Below, one piece after another: positions 8,982 through 16,686 of a stretch of DNA of 64,000 nt (positions within the stretch are counted from its first letter, which is position 1; every line of letters begins with the position of its first letter). The DNA is from Pseudalgibacter alginicilyticus. GTDB taxonomy: Bacteria > Bacteroidota > Bacteroidia > Flavobacteriales > Flavobacteriaceae. Where the stretch lies: positions 3,466,001-3,530,000 of the forward strand of contig NZ_CP012898.1 in assembly GCF_001310225.1 (NCBI RefSeq), in the 5' to 3' direction. The notes beneath the pieces were generated by a model. That model searched no databases. It was not told the origin of the DNA and saw nothing but the letters and a program-made list of their open reading frames with translations. The position numbers were made by a program, and so were the translations under genes.

Positions 8982-9399
8982 TTATTTCTCAGGATTATGA
9001 ACACAAAATTTATAACCCTTAGTTAAGTATTTTTTTGCAACGTTTTGTATTTGTTTTTTTGTTATAGTATTAATATCTTCTTCATAATTAAAAACTCGTG
9101 AAAGATTCCTGTCGTAAAAATCAGCATTTTTCAGTAAATTTAACCAAAATCTTTTTTCGAATAGATTCTGCTTTAATTATCAAACGCAATTCTACTTTAT
9201 CTTCGGGTTTTTTATTGTTTCTAATATAATAGGTTAAACCATTGTTAAGTTCTCCAATTTTTATATTTTCTGCAATAGGAATTTTAGAGTTTAAATGGGA
9301 GTGTTTTGTGGTATTTTGAGCTAGAATAATGTTATTACTAATAATAAGAAGAAAACTGAAAATGAATAGAGTTATTTCTTTCATGAAAAGTAAATTCAT
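8982..9399 (-). pseudogene. M16 (insulinase-type) zinc peptidase remnant with large internal deletion
   Basis: The first 75 or so residues (signal peptide, then IPIAENIKIGELNNGLTYYIRNNKKPEDKVELRLIIKAESI) match the start of a secreted M16 peptidase. At about 9155-9165 the sequence jumps, in another frame, to a good M16 C-terminus: minus-strand translation from about 9157 to 8982 gives FWLNLLKNADFYDRNL, then SRVFNYEEDINTITKKQI, and ends VHNPEK-stop. A full-length homologue is around 900 residues or more, so roughly 2.4 kb, including the HxxEH zinc site, has been removed and the two ends joined out of frame. The probable original start is the second ATG (9384, MKEITLFIF). Confidence 0.85.
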
Positions 9400-10951: not shown

Positions 10952-11686
10952 TTATTTATGGAATTGTTGTTCCAGTTTTATGGCCTTAGGGAATAGAATA
11001 TTGTTTTCTAAGTGAATATGTAAATGCAAATCCTTTTCAAATTCATCTAACATAGCAAAAGTTACTCTATAGGTGTTGCAAGCATCTGCTGGCGGATTAT
11101 AATTATTTGTTAGTTCCGCTATTTGTCTAAAGCGTTCCCCTTCATTGTCATGTTCTTGCATCATCATTGTAATTGGGTTTTCAACGGTGCCAAAGTGTGG
11201 TGCTTCAATCGGGTTTTTTGATTTAGTAGCAGAAACCATTTTCCTTACAAAAGGGAAAAGAATTAATTCTTCTTTTTTCATGTGTGTTGCCAATTCATTC
11301 GCAGAGGCAGTAAATAGTTCGTTTATTTTATATAGTTCTGGATGCCTTTCTGCATGAACGTTGCATAATTTATCTAAAAACTGACGTAATACCGGAATTT
11401 TTTCCTCTACATAGCGATGGTGCTTTTTTTCAATATAATCTATCAATAAATCTAATGGCCAAGATTTATAGTCTATGGATTGGTCTGTATTTGAATGTAA
11501 TACAGCATTTAATTTGTCTAACAATTCGTTAATATTTATATCATTTTTTTTGCAAACTTCTTCAATGCTTCTTTGGCCTTTACAACAAAAATCTATACCG
11601 TAGTTGCTAAATACTGCTGCTGTTCTAAAGTCGTCTGCTACAAATTGTCCAATCTGTTTTTTTGCATTATTATTAAGTACTTCCAT
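10952..11686 (-). CDS. ric: Iron-sulfur cluster repair di-iron protein Ric (YtfE/ScdA)
   Basis: Ric proteins repair Fe-S clusters after nitric oxide or oxidative damage through a hemerythrin-like di-iron site. The N-terminal ScdA_N domain carries YGIDFCCKGQRS (Cys34-Cys35). The hemerythrin bundle supplies ligands in KKHHRYVEE, HAERHPELYKINELF, HMKKEELILFPF, MMQEHDNEGERF and HLHIHLENNILFP. The 244-residue length is normal for the family. It sits downstream of an Rrf2 regulator, and a palindrome (11701-11714) lies just upstream of its start, so NO- or iron-dependent control is likely. Confidence 0.95.
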   Translation of the reverse strand: MEVLNNNAKKQIGQFVADDFRTAAVFSNYGIDFCCKGQRSIEEVCKKNDININELLDKLNAVLHSNTDQSIDYKSWPLDLLIDYIEKKHHRYVEEKIPVLRQFLDKLCNVHAERHPELYKINELFTASANELATHMKKEELILFPFVRKMVSATKSKNPIEAPHFGTVENPITMMMQEHDNEGERFRQIAELTNNYNPPADACNTYRVTFAMLDEFEKDLHLHIHLENNILFPKAIKLEQQFHK

Positions 11687-11700
11687 AATGTTATTATTTC

Positions 11701-11714
11701 GGATAATTTTATCC
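11701..11714. promoter_or_regulatory. Palindromic operator candidate upstream of ric
   Basis: GGATAATTTTATCC has perfect 6-base inverted arms around TT and lies 15 bases before the ric start. Read on the minus strand (GGATAAAATTATCC) it agrees at 10 of 14 positions with the palindrome upstream of the Rrf2 gene (AGATAAATTTGTCT), giving a shared pattern RGATAAAWTTRTCY. This fits a binding site for the neighbouring Rrf2 protein. Confidence 0.6.
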
Positions 11715-11734
11715 TATTTATATTCAAATTTTTT

Positions 11735-12169
11735 TTAGACCTTTAAGTATGAAGCACCAGACTTAATGTTTAGTGCTAATTCTTCTAAATTTGTGTTTTC
11801 CAACATATGCTTCAATTCATCTCTTATATTTTTGAACTTATCATGTACAGCACAAGGGAAATTTTCATTACAGGCTTTCATTCCTAAACCGCAACCTTTA
11901 TAAATAGTGTCACCATCAATGGCATTAACTATTTGAGACAGTTTAATGGTTTTTAATTTGTTTTTGTTAATTTCAAAACCACCATAAGCACCTTTTACAG
12001 AATTTACAACTTGATGTTTAACTAATGCTTGTAATATTTTGGCTGTAAAAGCCTGAGGTGAATCAATTTCTTTTGCTATTTCTTTTGGACTTACTCGTAA
12101 ACCTTCTTTTGATTTTATAGCAATAAATATTGTAGCTTTAATGCCGTATTCACAGGCTTTTGAAAACAT
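11735..12169 (-). CDS. Rrf2 family Fe-S transcriptional regulator (NsrR-like)
   Basis: An N-terminal winged helix (ACEYGIKATIFIA, then DSPQAFTAKILQALVKHQVVNSVKGAYGGF) is followed by three cysteines, Cys93, Cys100 and Cys106, in GCGLGMKACNENFPCAVH. The C-x6-C-x5-C spacing is close to NsrR/IscR cluster-binding Cys sets. Position directly before ric, a dedicated NO-damage repair gene, argues for NO sensing. Its promoter contains a palindrome overlapping the -33 element, which indicates autorepression. IscR-type or RirA-type sensing cannot be excluded from sequence alone. Confidence 0.9.
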   Translation of the reverse strand: MFSKACEYGIKATIFIAIKSKEGLRVSPKEIAKEIDSPQAFTAKILQALVKHQVVNSVKGAYGGFEINKNKLKTIKLSQIVNAIDGDTIYKGCGLGMKACNENFPCAVHDKFKNIRDELKHMLENTNLEELALNIKSGASYLKV

Positions 12170-12255: not shown

Positions 12256-12729
12256 TTACAGACCTACTAAAATGGTTAAAATTTCAATAGCTGTTTTGTT
12301 AATATCTTCGTCTGGATTAAAAATAGTAGCAACGCCAGCATCAAATAGAAATTTATAATCTTGTTTTGGAATAGTGCTGCCTACAATAATCATTATATCT
12401 TCTCGGCCATATTTTTTTAATCCACTAATAACTTGTGGAATTAAAATTTTATAATTTGTTGCTGATACTGATAGGCTTAAAATATGCACATCGTTTTCTA
12501 TGGCTTGTTTAGTAATCTCTTGTGGCGTTTCAAAGAGAGGCGCAATGTCTACATCAAAACCAATATGAGCAAATGTTGTTGCTAACACTTTAGTGTTTTG
12601 AACAAGATAATCTTGTTTCATTTTTGAAATCATAATTCGTGGGCGTCTGCCGTCTTGTTCTGCAAAAACATCAGCTAATTTTTGTGCTTTTTTATAAGAG
12701 TCATCATTTTTTAGTTTTGAGTTGTACAT
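12256..12729 (-). CDS. Free-standing cobalamin-binding-domain homologue of methylmalonyl-CoA mutase, lacking the B12 motifs
   Basis: This 157-residue protein aligns end to end with the C-terminal B12 domain of the mutase large subunit (VFAEQDGRRPRIMISKM, FDVDIAPLFETPQE, PKQDYKFLFDAGVATIF). The signature DxHxxG reads D40-Y-L42-V-Q-N45, so the cobalt-ligating His is Leu. SSL reads SVS, the GG of VGGVIP reads GS, and GPGT reads NPDE; all the cofactor loops I remember are altered while the scaffold is kept. It lies 32 bases after the catalytic-domain gene in a different frame. Cobalamin binding in the usual His-on mode looks impossible. It is either a repurposed scaffold protein or an early stage of decay. 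Confidence 0.85.
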   Translation of the reverse strand: MYNSKLKNDDSYKKAQKLADVFAEQDGRRPRIMISKMKQDYLVQNTKVLATTFAHIGFDVDIAPLFETPQEITKQAIENDVHILSLSVSATNYKILIPQVISGLKKYGREDIMIIVGSTIPKQDYKFLFDAGVATIFNPDEDINKTAIEILTILVGL

Positions 12730-12761
12730 CTTATATTATGATTTTGTATTTGTTTTTAGAG

Positions 12762-14363
12762 TTAAACTTCAAGTGCCTTGCAGATTTCATTTAAAGTTGC
12801 TCGCTCACGAGCAGCATCGATTGCTAAACTTAATAGGTTTTCTTGGCCGTTTTGTACTGCACTGGTTAGTTTTGAAAGGATTGTTTTAATTTTTTCAGAA
12901 TCTCTTTCGGATTTAATTTTATTTAAACGTTCTAATTGCTGATTTAATGTAGTTTGTTCATCTACATTAGGAATATTATTTGAGGTATTTTTTTCTGATT
13001 TATATTGATTTAATTCAGTTGTAATATTTTGATTAAAATCTATACGTGTTTGTTTTTTATTAAAAGTTTCTTTAATGTGTGATTTATAAATGCCAGATTT
13101 TATAGCCATAGTCATGCCGCCCATTGCTTCAATTTCTTCAATATGCTCCCAAGCTTTTTCTGTAAGATTCTGGGTTAGTTTTTCAATATAATAACTGCCA
13201 CCCCAAGGGTCTACTGTTTTTGTTACTTTCGTTTCTTCTTGTAAAAAAAGTTGTGTGTTTCGGGCAATACGAACTGATAAGTTGGTTTGTAAATCTTTGG
13301 CTTGAGTAGGAATATTTGTATGTAAAGATTGTGTGCCGCCAAATATTGCGGAGGCAGCTTGAATAGTTGTTCTTGTTATATTATTAAAAGAATTTTGCTC
13401 AGCTAAACTGTAAATTGCGGTTTTACAATGTGTACGTAGTTTTAATGAATTTTCATTTTTAGGATTAAATTGTTTAATCATTTTAGCCCATAACATTCTT
13501 GCTGCTCTCATTTTAGCTATATCTATAAAATGATTCATGCCAATACTCCAAGAGAAAGATAATTTGGAAGCTAATGTATCAATGCTTAAACCTAATTCTA
13601 AGCCTTTTTTTATGTATTCCAATCCTTGTGCTAACATGTAAGCCAACTCCTTGTAAACGGTTGTATTGACTTCATGTAGATAGTGCCCCGAAATATTTAT
13701 GCTATTGAATTTGGGCATATATTGGTTTGTATATTCAAAAATATTAGAAATGATTTTCATAGAATGAGTAGGAGAGGAATAGCGGTTTGGCTCCATAAAT
13801 TCTTTTAAAATGTCATTTTCTATCGAGCCTTTTAATTGTTGGGGTGTTACTCCTTGTTCTTCTGCTGCAACAATATAAAATGCCATGATGGGTAAAATAG
13901 TATGGTTTAGAGTTATAGATAGATTGGTTATTTCTAAAGAGATTTGGTTAAAAATCAACTTCATGTCATCAACAATATTGATGGCAATATCTGTGTTTAT
14001 AACATTATGTTTGCTGTCATTACTATTGTTTTTTAGGTTAACTGCATCCAAAATAATGAAAAGTTCTTCTTGTTCTTTTAGGATACTTTCTTTGTAAAAG
14101 GTATCAATGTTCTCAGCATTTAAATTTTTTTGATATTGCTTTATTGTCCAAGGATTTTCTATATACATAGTACTGTATGGACCTCGTAAATAAGGTGATA
14201 TGCCAGCGGCGAAGTTGAGGTGTTCTAAATTTTCAATATCTGTTTTAGAATAATGTGTTTTTATGTTGATACCTTTAATAATAAAGGGAGGGCTTTTTTC
14301 TATCGGATTCTGGATGATAGTTGGTATTTTTAAAGCAATGTGTTGAAGATTTTTTCTTAACAT
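12762..14363 (-). CDS. Methylmalonyl-CoA mutase large-subunit catalytic domain homologue, active-site residues lost
   Basis: The protein covers only the TIM-barrel half of the large subunit (533 residues against about 700 with the B12 domain). The scaffold is very conserved: LRGPYSTMY, AFYIVAAEEQGV, RMLWAKMIKQFNPKN, FGGTQSLHTN and TKTVDPWGGSYYIEKLT. Contact segments are not: AGFSTA after RQY is QKNLNA (78-83), the THRGYDSD loop is replaced and 3 residues shorter, VRNTYIYP is EPNRYSSP (Arg207 equivalent is Pro192), SGYHMQEAGAT is SGHYLHEVNTT (His244 equivalent is Tyr228), and QTSGW is KTAIY. It starts 12 bases after mutA. Mutase activity is unlikely; a structural partner of MutA is possible. 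Confidence 0.85.
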   Translation of the reverse strand: MLRKNLQHIALKIPTIIQNPIEKSPPFIIKGINIKTHYSKTDIENLEHLNFAAGISPYLRGPYSTMYIENPWTIKQYQKNLNAENIDTFYKESILKEQEELFIILDAVNLKNNSNDSKHNVINTDIAINIVDDMKLIFNQISLEITNLSITLNHTILPIMAFYIVAAEEQGVTPQQLKGSIENDILKEFMEPNRYSSPTHSMKIISNIFEYTNQYMPKFNSINISGHYLHEVNTTVYKELAYMLAQGLEYIKKGLELGLSIDTLASKLSFSWSIGMNHFIDIAKMRAARMLWAKMIKQFNPKNENSLKLRTHCKTAIYSLAEQNSFNNITRTTIQAASAIFGGTQSLHTNIPTQAKDLQTNLSVRIARNTQLFLQEETKVTKTVDPWGGSYYIEKLTQNLTEKAWEHIEEIEAMGGMTMAIKSGIYKSHIKETFNKKQTRIDFNQNITTELNQYKSEKNTSNNIPNVDEQTTLNQQLERLNKIKSERDSEKIKTILSKLTSAVQNGQENLLSLAIDAARERATLNEICKALEV

Positions 14364-14375
14364 TTAGAAGGTTTT

Positions 14376-15758
14376 TTAAAGCTCGTTTTTTAATCGATTT
14401 TTTTCTAAAGTTTCAGATAATCGCTTTTCTATAATGGGTTCAATGAATGTTTTTCTAGGATTACTTTTAATAAATGGATAAAGCTCTAACTCTTGTTTCA
14501 TCCTGTCATTAGGGTTGATGTGTTTATTGGTCCCAATTAAAATTTCCTTTCCTTCATCAAATTGTTTTTGCTCTTTTTCAGCATTTTCTTTTATTTTTCT
14601 TTGAATGGTACCTTCTTTTAGTTGTTTTAAAAAACCACCATTTGCTTCAATATCTTTAAATAATATCAAGGCTTTTTCTGCTAATTGCTTCGTTAGCGTT
14701 TCAATATAGTAAGCTCCATCGGCAGGGTTGTTTACTTTATCAAAATGGCTTTCATGTTTCAAAATAAGGAGTTGGTTTCGTGCCATACGTTCACTAAAAT
14801 CATTTGTTTTGTGGTATATGGCATCATAGGGCAAATTAACAATTGTGTTAGCTCCTCCAATAATGGCGCTCATGCATTCAGTCGTTGTACGAAGCATATT
14901 GGTATGGTTATCGTAGAGTGTTTTGTTACGCTTAGTAGATGTTGCTACAATATTACAATCTGAATTAATTTTATATTCTGAAGCTAAGGTATGCCAAAGA
15001 ATTCGTAAAGCTCTTAGTTTGGCAATTTCAAAGAAGTAATTAGTTCCAACGGATACATGAAAAGTAAATGTAAATGACTGTTTGCTTAGATTGTCAATGA
15101 GGTTTAAATATTCATTGACATGGGAGATTATATAAGCTAATTGTTGCACAATATTAGCTCCTGCATTTTGATATAATACCCCGTCAACGTTAAATGAATT
15201 TGTAATTTTTACAATAGACGTAAAGGTTTTAAAATCATCATTTAAATTTTTAAACCAATTCCCATTTTTGGTTAAATTTCCAATGATATCTGTTTTAATA
15301 TTGAAATTATTTAATAGAGTCTTTTGATTGCAGTTAAGATAATAATCATAAATTATTTGTACGTATGGGAATGATAGAAACTGTAGTTCAAAAGAAATGG
15401 AAACGGTATTTAGGTTAATATTCTGTAATAAATCAGAAACTAAAATACGAGCTGTTGGTATGATGAACGTTATAGTATCTATCCCTTCTTTAACTAAGTT
15501 TATAGCTTTTTCATTTGATTTTTGTACATCCGCTACGTAGATAAACTGTCCTATTTTCCATTCGGAAGCTTTAGTATTTGAGGGATCTGGAAGGTCATTA
15601 AAATCATCGGCATGATAAAAAGGTTTCACTGAAATATCTTCATTGCTTTTCCAAATAAGCGTGTTGTTGTAGTCGGCTCCTTTTAAGTCGACTTGTATTT
15701 TTTGTTTCCATTGTTTAGCAGAAACCCTATTAAATTCATCAAAAAGTCTTTTACTCAT
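14376..15758 (-). CDS. mutA: Methylmalonyl-CoA mutase small subunit
   Basis: The small subunit pairs with the catalytic subunit that interconverts succinyl-CoA and methylmalonyl-CoA; in known mutases it has no active site itself. Matching blocks are VSAKQWKQKIQVDLKGADYNNTLIWKSNE at the start, QNAGANIVQQLAYIISHVNEYL, SVGTNYFFEIAKLRALRILW, TTTECMSAIIGGANTI and VNNPADGAYYIETLTKQLAEKAL. The length of 460 fits the Flavobacteriia form. Unlike its partner genes it looks ordinary throughout. Its ATG overlaps the end of the divIC-like gene by 8 bases, so it is part of the udk operon. Confidence 0.93.
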   Translation of the reverse strand: MSKRLFDEFNRVSAKQWKQKIQVDLKGADYNNTLIWKSNEDISVKPFYHADDFNDLPDPSNTKASEWKIGQFIYVADVQKSNEKAINLVKEGIDTITFIIPTARILVSDLLQNINLNTVSISFELQFLSFPYVQIIYDYYLNCNQKTLLNNFNIKTDIIGNLTKNGNWFKNLNDDFKTFTSIVKITNSFNVDGVLYQNAGANIVQQLAYIISHVNEYLNLIDNLSKQSFTFTFHVSVGTNYFFEIAKLRALRILWHTLASEYKINSDCNIVATSTKRNKTLYDNHTNMLRTTTECMSAIIGGANTIVNLPYDAIYHKTNDFSERMARNQLLILKHESHFDKVNNPADGAYYIETLTKQLAEKALILFKDIEANGGFLKQLKEGTIQRKIKENAEKEQKQFDEGKEILIGTNKHINPNDRMKQELELYPFIKSNPRKTFIEPIIEKRLSETLEKNRLKNEL

Positions 15759-16080
15759 TTGGTTTTACCTTAAGGCTGTCTTCGTACTCAATAATGTAAA
15801 TTTCTTCATTTTCGCGTTTCATATAGTATTCTTCTCGAGCAAATTTTTCAATACCTTCTTCAGTACTTAATTTTTTAAGTGCTTTTTTATCTTTTTCAAT
15901 CTCCTTTTTGTAGTATTCTTTTTCGTTTTCTAAATCGTTAATTTCGCTATTCAATTCATGATGAATAAGCCAAGAATTGGCATCAAAAAATAGCATCCAA
16001 ACAATAAACACGGTCAATATAAGAATGAATATGTTTTTGAATGGTTTCAATAGCTTCTTTTTGTTAAAAGGGGCTGCCAT
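15751..16080 (-). CDS. Septum formation initiator family protein (FtsB/DivIC-like)
   Basis: This is a 109-residue bitopic protein with a basic N-terminus, one membrane helix (residues about 18-37) and a coiled coil rich in Glu and Lys (LNSEINDLENEKEYYKKEIEKDKKAL), followed by EEGIEKFAREEYYMKRENEEIYII, a family hallmark. FtsB/DivIC proteins bridge early and late divisome components on the outer face of the inner membrane. It starts 1 base after the udk stop and overlaps mutA, as expected for one operon. Confidence 0.92.
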   Translation of the reverse strand: MAAPFNKKKLLKPFKNIFILILTVFIVWMLFFDANSWLIHHELNSEINDLENEKEYYKKEIEKDKKALKKLSTEEGIEKFAREEYYMKRENEEIYIIEYEDSLKVKPNE

Positions 16081-16686
16081 TTATAATCTTTGGTTTATGA
16101 TGGTTTTTACTATATCTATTGCCACGGTATTATATTTGTTGTTAGGAATTATAATATCCGCAAACTCTTTCATGGGTTCAATAAACTGATTGTGCATCGG
16201 TTTGAGTGTGGTTTGGTATCTGGTTAAAACTTCGTCCAAATCTCTACCACGTTCTGTAATGTCACGCTTTAAACGGCGTATTAATCGTTCATCACTATCG
16301 GCATGTACAAAAATTTTAATGTCAAACATATCTCGTAATTCTGGATTTGTTAAAATTAAAATACCTTCTACAATGATCACCTTTCTGGGGTGTGTAAAAA
16401 TAGTATCTCCTGTTCTATTATGTTTAACAAATGAATAGACGGGTTGGTGCACTGTATTGCCTTTTTTTAATTCAACTAAGTGCTCGTGTAATAATTCAAA
16501 ATCAATAGAGCGTGGATGATCAAAATTTATTTTAACCCGTTCGTCATAACTTAAATGTGAGGTGTCTTTATAGTATGAGTCTTGCGAGAGGATACCTACT
16601 TCGCCCTCTGGTAATTCTTTTAAAATTTGATTAACAACGGTTGTTTTTCCACAACCAGTACCACCAGCAATACCAATAATAAGCAT
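16081..16686 (-). CDS. udk: Uridine kinase
   Basis: Uridine kinase phosphorylates uridine and cytidine in pyrimidine salvage in the cytosol. The P-loop is GIAGGTGCGKTTVV at residues 5-18, followed by SQDSYYKDTSHLSYDERVKINFDHPRSID, the nucleoside-binding region, and IVEGILIL and RLIRRLKRDITERGRDL. The length of 201 is standard. It is the first gene of the udk-divIC-mutA operon; a TAACTTTG element lies 25 bases upstream. Confidence 0.97.
   Translation of the reverse strand: MLIIGIAGGTGCGKTTVVNQILKELPEGEVGILSQDSYYKDTSHLSYDERVKINFDHPRSIDFELLHEHLVELKKGNTVHQPVYSFVKHNRTGDTIFTHPRKVIIVEGILILTNPELRDMFDIKIFVHADSDERLIRRLKRDITERGRDLDEVLTRYQTTLKPMHNQFIEPMKEFADIIIPNNKYNTVAIDIVKTIINQRL

Follow-up and report, generated by a model that had tools for sequence, protein, structure and literature searches.

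A split methylmalonyl-CoA mutase with eroded ligand sites in Pseudalgibacter alginicilyticus is probably retained as a pseudoenzyme

Mutases dependent on adenosylcobalamin (AdoCbl) that are split into two chains keep the DxHxxG motif and are enzymes. For human methylmalonyl-coenzyme A (CoA) mutase, MMUT, the residues listed at the interface with MMAA, the counterpart of the bacterial G-protein chaperone MeaB, are Arg614, Arg616, Asp640, Asp644, Phe651, Gln652 and Asp663, and Arg694 was tested (PMC10356863). In M. extorquens, the interface between MeaB and the cobalamin domain comprises the strand 612–616 (FDVDI), Asp609, position 632, Asp634 and Glu577 (mapped here by hand onto the sequence, where 632 is Glu, printed as Asp in the source), and the isolated domain (MeMCMcbl) binds MeaB and activates it in vitro without cofactor, the apo form raising GTPase activity 25-fold (PMC9974510). 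Here we describe a locus in a 64,000-nucleotide stretch of the P. alginicilyticus genome (NZ_CP012898.1, positions 3,466,001–3,530,000; hereafter the window) at which the mutase large-subunit gene, mutB, is split in two and has lost its ligand sites. The product is very probably a pseudo-mutase kept by selection, and the surviving face of its B12-binding domain coincides with the published MeaB/MMAA docking face.

The initial annotation of this locus, made from the window alone, had read mutB as two open genes separated by a short gap and a change of frame, and both the open reading frames and the junction bear this out (Table 1; (14363-12729) mod 3 = 2 between the halves). Both pieces are homologous to mutases, over the TIM barrel (TIGR00641, 556 bits) and the B12 domain (TIGR00640, 136 bits). 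That the split stems from a sequencing error was rejected, as the pieces carry many substitutions and the split recurs in relatives. All listed substitutions are present, i.e., DGHDRG to DYLVQN, SSL to SVS, GG to GS and GPGT to NPDE in the C part, and AGFSTA to QKNLNA, VRNTYIYP to EPNRYSSP, SGYHMQEAGAT to SGHYLHEVNTT and QTSGW to KTAIY in the N part; the cobalamin motif DxHxxG...SxL...GG is absent from the C part. Among Tyr89, Arg207, His244 and Gln197, which we take to be the substrate residues after the P. shermanii mutase, Tyr89 is kept while Arg207 has become Pro, His244 Tyr and Gln197 Glu; Gln330 to Lys and others are also replaced. The proposed concentration of changes at ligand sites holds by site counts in the N part (16/24 ligand sites changed vs 89/267 other intact-invariant sites; odds 4.0, p=0.0015) and in the C part (7/12 vs 17/63; odds 3.8, p=0.04). 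The interface and barrel blocks had been called near identical to ordinary mutases, which is too strong: the N part is ~50–57% identical to intact mutases overall, with patches of much higher identity. Surviving blocks include the N-terminal arm RKNLQHI and IAKMRAARMLWAK/DPWGGSYY in the N part, and GRRPR, GFDVD and END in the C part. By the sequence features tested, the window gene is MutB by descent and neither a catalytic mutase nor a neutral pseudogene.

A genuine B12 enzyme in two pieces that performs new chemistry, comparable to IcmA/IcmB, HcmA/HcmB and the archaeal mutases, would explain the split, as this architecture is natural in families of the IcmA/IcmB type, and His persists at the cobalt-ligand position in three relatives (G423, G427, G430). 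We consider it extremely unlikely, because the window copy and most others are without the cobalt-ligating His, the DxHxxG loop, GG, GPGT and Arg207/His244/Gln197, and because the N or C part is wholly lost in several genomes.

Table 1. Features of the window locus and states of the corresponding locus in relatives (G, genomes; g, genera)
Feature	Position in window, or genomes	Strand	Basis or remark
M16-type protease gene remnant	8991..9384	-	~940-aa gene; residues 1-71 and 865-935 left, two frames
Hemerythrin/ScdA-type iron-sulfur repair protein	10952..12169	-	adjoins the Rrf2 regulator gene
Stand-alone degenerate C-terminal (B12-binding) domain of MutB, 157 aa	12256..12729	-	open reading frame and TIGR00640 match
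Gap between mutB halves, 32 bases, frame change, at inter-domain linker	12730..12761	-	junction read
Degenerate N-terminal TIM-barrel part of MutB, 533 aa	12762..14363	-	open reading frame and TIGR00641 match
MutA small subunit, 460 aa	14376..15758	-	lacks a C domain, the common form here across the family
DivIC/FtsB-like septum formation gene	15751..16080	-	8-base overlap with mutA start; syntenic marker of ancestral locus
Uridine kinase gene udk	16081..16686	-	syntenic marker
Stand-alone C-domain gene	G000 (window); g15: G014, G427, G428, G430, G429; g172: G357; g153: G423, G156; g26: G025, G275, G431, G433, G436, G437, G441, G450
Degenerate N gene (8 genomes)	G000, G357, G175, G423, G014, G427, G428, G430
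MutA and N only	G175
MutA and C only	G156, G429
C only, directly behind divIC	g26 clade		MutA and N lost
MutA and 205-214 aa mini-N	G291, G165
MutA alone	G094, G142, G032; also G344, G084		the last two apart from a lipoprotein-like frame
Nothing left at locus	G280, G369, G432, G439
Intact gene, some same genera	G267; G424, G425, G426, G345; G420-G422; G435, G446
Second mutase of type x, ancestral MutB kept	G425, G070, G063, G284, G015, G444		contig ends inside G444 gene

Besides the degenerate genes, the window genome (one contig, 99.97% complete) encodes a second mutase, whose presence the initial annotation had proposed to check: an intact MutA–MutB pair, with a 605-aa MutA, whose operon also encodes OadB and a CoA-transferase, PccB and MeaB lying close by. 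We counted this second-mutase type, labelled x for the type only, by hand over loci; the counts are not independent. In 27 genomes with x the ancestral MutB is lost or degenerate and in 6 it is kept, while it persists in 17/17 genomes that have a mutase but no x (in two of them the gene reaches a contig end); G194 and G369, of unclear type, were left out, and no mutase was found in G165 or in the contaminated bin G432. Every degenerate-locus genome checked has a second mutase, except G165, and contrasts between x and loss recur inside genera g15, g153, g172, g26, g139 and g152.

The degenerate state is shared by relatives. Intact MutB was found in most Flavobacteriaceae searched, usually at a udk-divIC-mutA locus in those inspected, and a stand-alone C-domain gene occupies that locus in 17 genomes from five genus groups, the window species' own genus being represented by one genome in the comparison set. 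The orthologue search thus recovered this locus in other genera, split in the same manner and with losses of the same class, and B12 motifs are eroded in 17/17 stand-alone C domains. The pieces have shrunk convergently, to N plus C, N only, C only, a ~210-aa mini-N or MutA alone. A separate genome-collection scan for close relatives, in a collection outside which the window genome lies, showed no relative with a split gene at the loci that were inspected.

Fission occurred more than once. In the N-domain tree, the split copy of G423 groups with the intact gene of its congener G424 (96/94) and well apart from other split copies; at least one fission is independent, because this copy lies inside its own genus's intact clade. 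A single ancestral fission inherited by all was accordingly rejected for G423, the other long branches being undecidable by the tree. The junction lesions also differ: G423 lacks two bases in a GTGTGT linker stretch and restarts at GTG, while G000 and G357 restart at ATG in the same place. The intact linker SGVYSKE is coded GTG TAT AGT AAA (e.g., L223 5972–8095). Because it holds a GTG codon, a frameshift there would leave a ready start for the C domain, and such a built-in restart may account for the recurrence of fission at a single site. The g26 species with C only form one clade (support 100), and G156, G429 and g26 reached that state separately, given their positions in different genera.

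We then estimated the ratio of non-synonymous to synonymous substitution rates (dN/dS) under branch models. Inside the degenerate crown of g15, dN/dS was 0.151 for the N part and 0.061 for the C part (twice the log-likelihood difference against 1, 356 and 174, respectively), and it was 0.276 for the C part of the g26 C-only clade (87). Values were 0.171 (N) and 0.179 (C) on the G423 branch and 0.209 for N of G357/G175; terminal branches such as G423 possibly mix an intact and a neutral phase, and the g15 and g26 crowns are for this reason the decisive cases. Intact MutB has a dN/dS of 0.02–0.05, and rates in the degenerate copies are several-fold raised. Differences between the N parts of G428 and G430 keep a coding pattern over codon positions (0.374, 0.263, 0.488), with protein identity at only 49% while udk is 98% identical. 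Under simulated neutral drift between the window N part and its nearest pseudo copy, ~20 in-frame stops are expected (minimum 10, 300 runs) and none is seen, and thus the frames are not open by chance; more generally, 20–25 stops are expected for N parts and ~5–6 for C parts, and 0 were observed. Purifying selection on the degenerate pieces is well supported by these comparisons, the support being strongest in the sister clades and weaker on the branch of the window copy itself.

Slow decay of a redundant duplicate, its frames open by chance or held against polarity on the neighbours, would fit the intact second mutase in nearly all of these genomes, the raised rates, the ongoing loss of pieces or of the whole locus, and a truly decayed gene nearby in the window. 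We nevertheless regard it as improbable: the low dN/dS was measured in clades whose ancestor was already degenerate (0.06–0.28, likelihood ratios 87–356 against 1), the expected stops are missing from N parts, 17 C domains share an invariant core, and polarity cannot account for C-only genes at the end of a cluster. A private decaying duplicate was likewise rejected, since relatives share the locus and dN/dS speaks against it. The initial annotation had allowed for very early decay, which does not stand, as degeneration is old in g15 and g26 with frames still open. It had also allowed for a simple decaying duplicate, of which the intact paralogue does exist, but so do orthologues, and dN/dS, whose calculation it had proposed, lies far below 1 inside the degenerate clades. 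Its suggestion of a cofactor-free pseudoenzyme or regulatory complex gains support from orthologous loci with the same losses and from purifying selection. Catalytic residues lost and a sequence kept under purifying selection are what defines a pseudoenzyme, and both are seen in these pieces, while the profile of a neutral pseudogene (dN/dS near 1, stops, frameshifts) does not describe these pieces.

What the C domain retains is specific. In human numbering, R616, E663, N664, D665, G642, V645, D646, G612 and F607 are kept in 17/17 C domains from six lineage groups, R613 and D644 in 16/17, R614 and F643 in 15/17 and D640 in 13/17. Overall, retention was 0.89 at interface sites, 0.62 at other, equally conserved sites and 0.31 at B12 sites (permutation p 0.0004–0.002); when only the C-only clade is considered, the values are 0.70, 0.27 and 0.05, respectively (p 0.0006). 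The window C part keeps R614, R616, F643, D644, V645, D646, F651, E663, D665 and R694, and lacks D640 and Q652. Its fold is predicted to be kept: an AlphaFold2 model reached a mean predicted local distance difference test score of 87.4, and its best match in the PDB was 8dpb, MeaB with the cobalamin-binding domain (template-modelling score 0.94 on target). Docking of the C part on MeaB is a plausible reading of these residues, which we place slightly below an even chance. A C domain that acts as a dominant negative or a buffer, docking on intact MutB's substrate barrel in place of that chain's own B12 domain, would also suit C-only species, which keep C beside an intact mutase, and the predicted fold. 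It is very unlikely, since the barrel-facing side is the cofactor side, i.e., the part that was lost.

In the N part, sites kept in 4/4 g15 copies are concentrated in the N-terminal arm RKNLQHIxL, in LRG..STMY, in the helix EIAKxRAARxxWxK and in DPWxGSxxVExxT; the helix and DPxxGS-type blocks are common to MutA. The mini-N proteins of G165 and G291 have most of the barrel's first half deleted and keep the same blocks, retaining 43/71 (61%) and 53/73 (73%) of the sites kept in g15 vs 29/142 (20%) and 34/132 (26%) elsewhere. We infer that the surviving blocks are association surfaces, and tentatively assign the N part as a partner of MutA. An AlphaFold2 model of the N part from a shallow alignment (score 58) was not used. 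MutA itself, which had been called normal, is not under relaxed selection: its dN/dS at degenerate loci vs background was 0.079 vs 0.073, 0.081 vs 0.099 and 0.119 vs 0.123, and in MutA-only genomes 0.056 vs 0.078, on branches that include time before the loss of MutB.

These values bear on another reading, in which the pseudo-mutase is kept for a different non-enzymatic role centred on MutA and the C face reflects fold or a partner other than MeaB; perhaps MutA and the N pieces act as a structural or regulatory partner, as an alternative small subunit of intact MutB, or in a link to divIC/udk. MutA is the piece most often kept, its dN/dS is unchanged whatever the fate of MutB, G165 has MutA and a mini-N with no mutase, and several genomes keep MutA alone. 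However, such a role does not predict that C alone survives in g26, where MutA and N are lost, or that the surviving C face matches the MeaB interface, and we hold it to be unlikely.

Given these results, we take the locus to be the ancestral flavobacterial mutA-mutB pair of the udk-divIC cluster. Comparison with relatives shows that, in genomes with the second complete mutase operon, the ancestral MutB lost its ligand sites, and with them probably catalysis, and split at the linker into an N gene and a C gene; purifying selection has kept the pieces, very probably as a cofactor-free pseudo-mutase. Its C domain would dock on MeaB through the GRRPR/AD-GFDVDI/END face without taking up cobalamin and, being blind to the cofactor, would stimulate or occupy the MeaB GTPase, thereby adjusting how the intact mutase is loaded with B12 or repaired. 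The N part and MutA would form an inert scaffold, because the N-terminal arm and outer helices survive and the ligand face does not. To the whole of this explanation, i.e., a retained non-catalytic pseudo-mutase with a MeaB-docking C half and an N half partnering MutA, we give an even chance.

Several points weigh against this explanation. The window C part has His at 640, retention at Arg694 and Gln652 is only 0.60 across C domains, and G437 and G441 are without R614 and D640. Residues retained at strand starts may be partly structural; MutA's inert B12-like domain, which keeps the fold, retains only 0.33 of the interface residues, and these are therefore apparently not demanded by fold alone, but this control is much more diverged. 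The surviving motif had been noticed before the interface lists were consulted, although the lists themselves come from papers. Synonymous divergence is saturated in many pairs, which makes point estimates of dN/dS rough and likelihood ratios safer, and the window branch has no close relatives by which selection before and after degeneration could be separated. MeaB docking is also not the sole retained role, as C was dropped in G175 and MutA stands alone in G094, G142 and G032, and it leaves the unchanged constraint on MutA unexplained, a weak point given that this part persists most often and shows the least relaxation.

Around these loci, further observations were made. An Rrf2 regulator gene comes after the C-terminal mutB gene in the window, and also after the pseudo-mutase in g15; directly downstream of the pseudo-mutase in the window, it adjoins the iron-sulfur repair gene. 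In relatives, an M16-type protease gene lies downstream of mutB, and its window remnant is a real decaying gene near the pseudo-mutase. Between mutA and mutB, many intact loci carry a lipoprotein-like frame of 204–221 aa (L219 5279–5929, L220, L221, L223–L225, L139 5327–5959, L140); similar frames after mutA in G344 (198 aa) and G084 (216 aa) are for this reason probably not mutB remnants. G165 keeps MutA and a 214-aa mini-MutB (L131 6017–8007) with no methylmalonyl-CoA mutase found in the genome, the best B12-domain match there being an 893-aa frame that is probably MetH. In G122, a 136-aa B12-domain-like frame, ~30% identical to MutB, stands beside MeaB and apart from the intact mutA-mutB (L096 7011–7421), possibly another stand-alone domain adjoining the chaperone gene.

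Taken together, the versions of one gene found at this locus across related genera, from intact through newly split and eroded to minimal, amount to a replicated natural experiment from enzyme to pseudoenzyme, with an intact second copy as the accompanying condition. The surfaces of a B12 mutase that are worth keeping without catalysis coincide with the docking site of MeaB, the human counterpart of which fails in methylmalonic aciduria. Regulation of MeaB/MMAA by a B12 domain that carries no cofactor thus becomes a specific and directly testable idea. More broadly, these genes may belong to a family of stand-alone, cofactor-blind B12 domains with several origins by fission and erosion, regulating MeaB as GTPase activators or decoys, alongside inert MutA/mini-MutB scaffolds, one in a genome with no detected mutase; we put this forward as a tentative possibility. 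Neither a mutase pseudoenzyme nor a cobalamin pseudoenzyme turned up in the open-access literature, subscription literature lying outside the search.

Compared with known systems, the window locus shares with MutB and human MMUT (P. shermanii 1REQ, human 2XIJ) the mutA-mutB order, homology over both halves and the predicted C fold; unlike them, it is split, has lost its ligand residues and has an independent C domain, which stands alone in some species. The split AdoCbl mutases (IcmA/IcmB, 2-hydroxyisobutyryl-CoA mutase 4R3U, A. pernix 2YXB) likewise have a separate B12 subunit of ~140–160 aa, but the functional B12 motif of that subunit is absent from the window C part, and sequence and synteny group the window pieces with the ordinary MutB of the same locus. 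The structure closest to the model of the window C part is that of MeMCMcbl bound to MeaB (PDB 8DPB, PMC9974510), with the same docking residues; MeMCMcbl is an artificial construct of a working domain, whereas the window-type genes are natural stand-alone versions that, by motif, would be unable to bind B12. In its way of working, the C part would be most like the MeMCMcbl construct, and the window pseudo-mutase as a whole would most resemble MutA, an older mutase chain that lost its cofactor and substrate sites and stayed as a partner, and with which the N part shares kept blocks of the EIAKxRAxRxLW and DPxxGSYYxExLT type. MutA, found generally in the two-subunit mutases of bacteria, has a catalytic chain as its partner; here the catalytic chain itself has degenerated, repeatedly and more recently.

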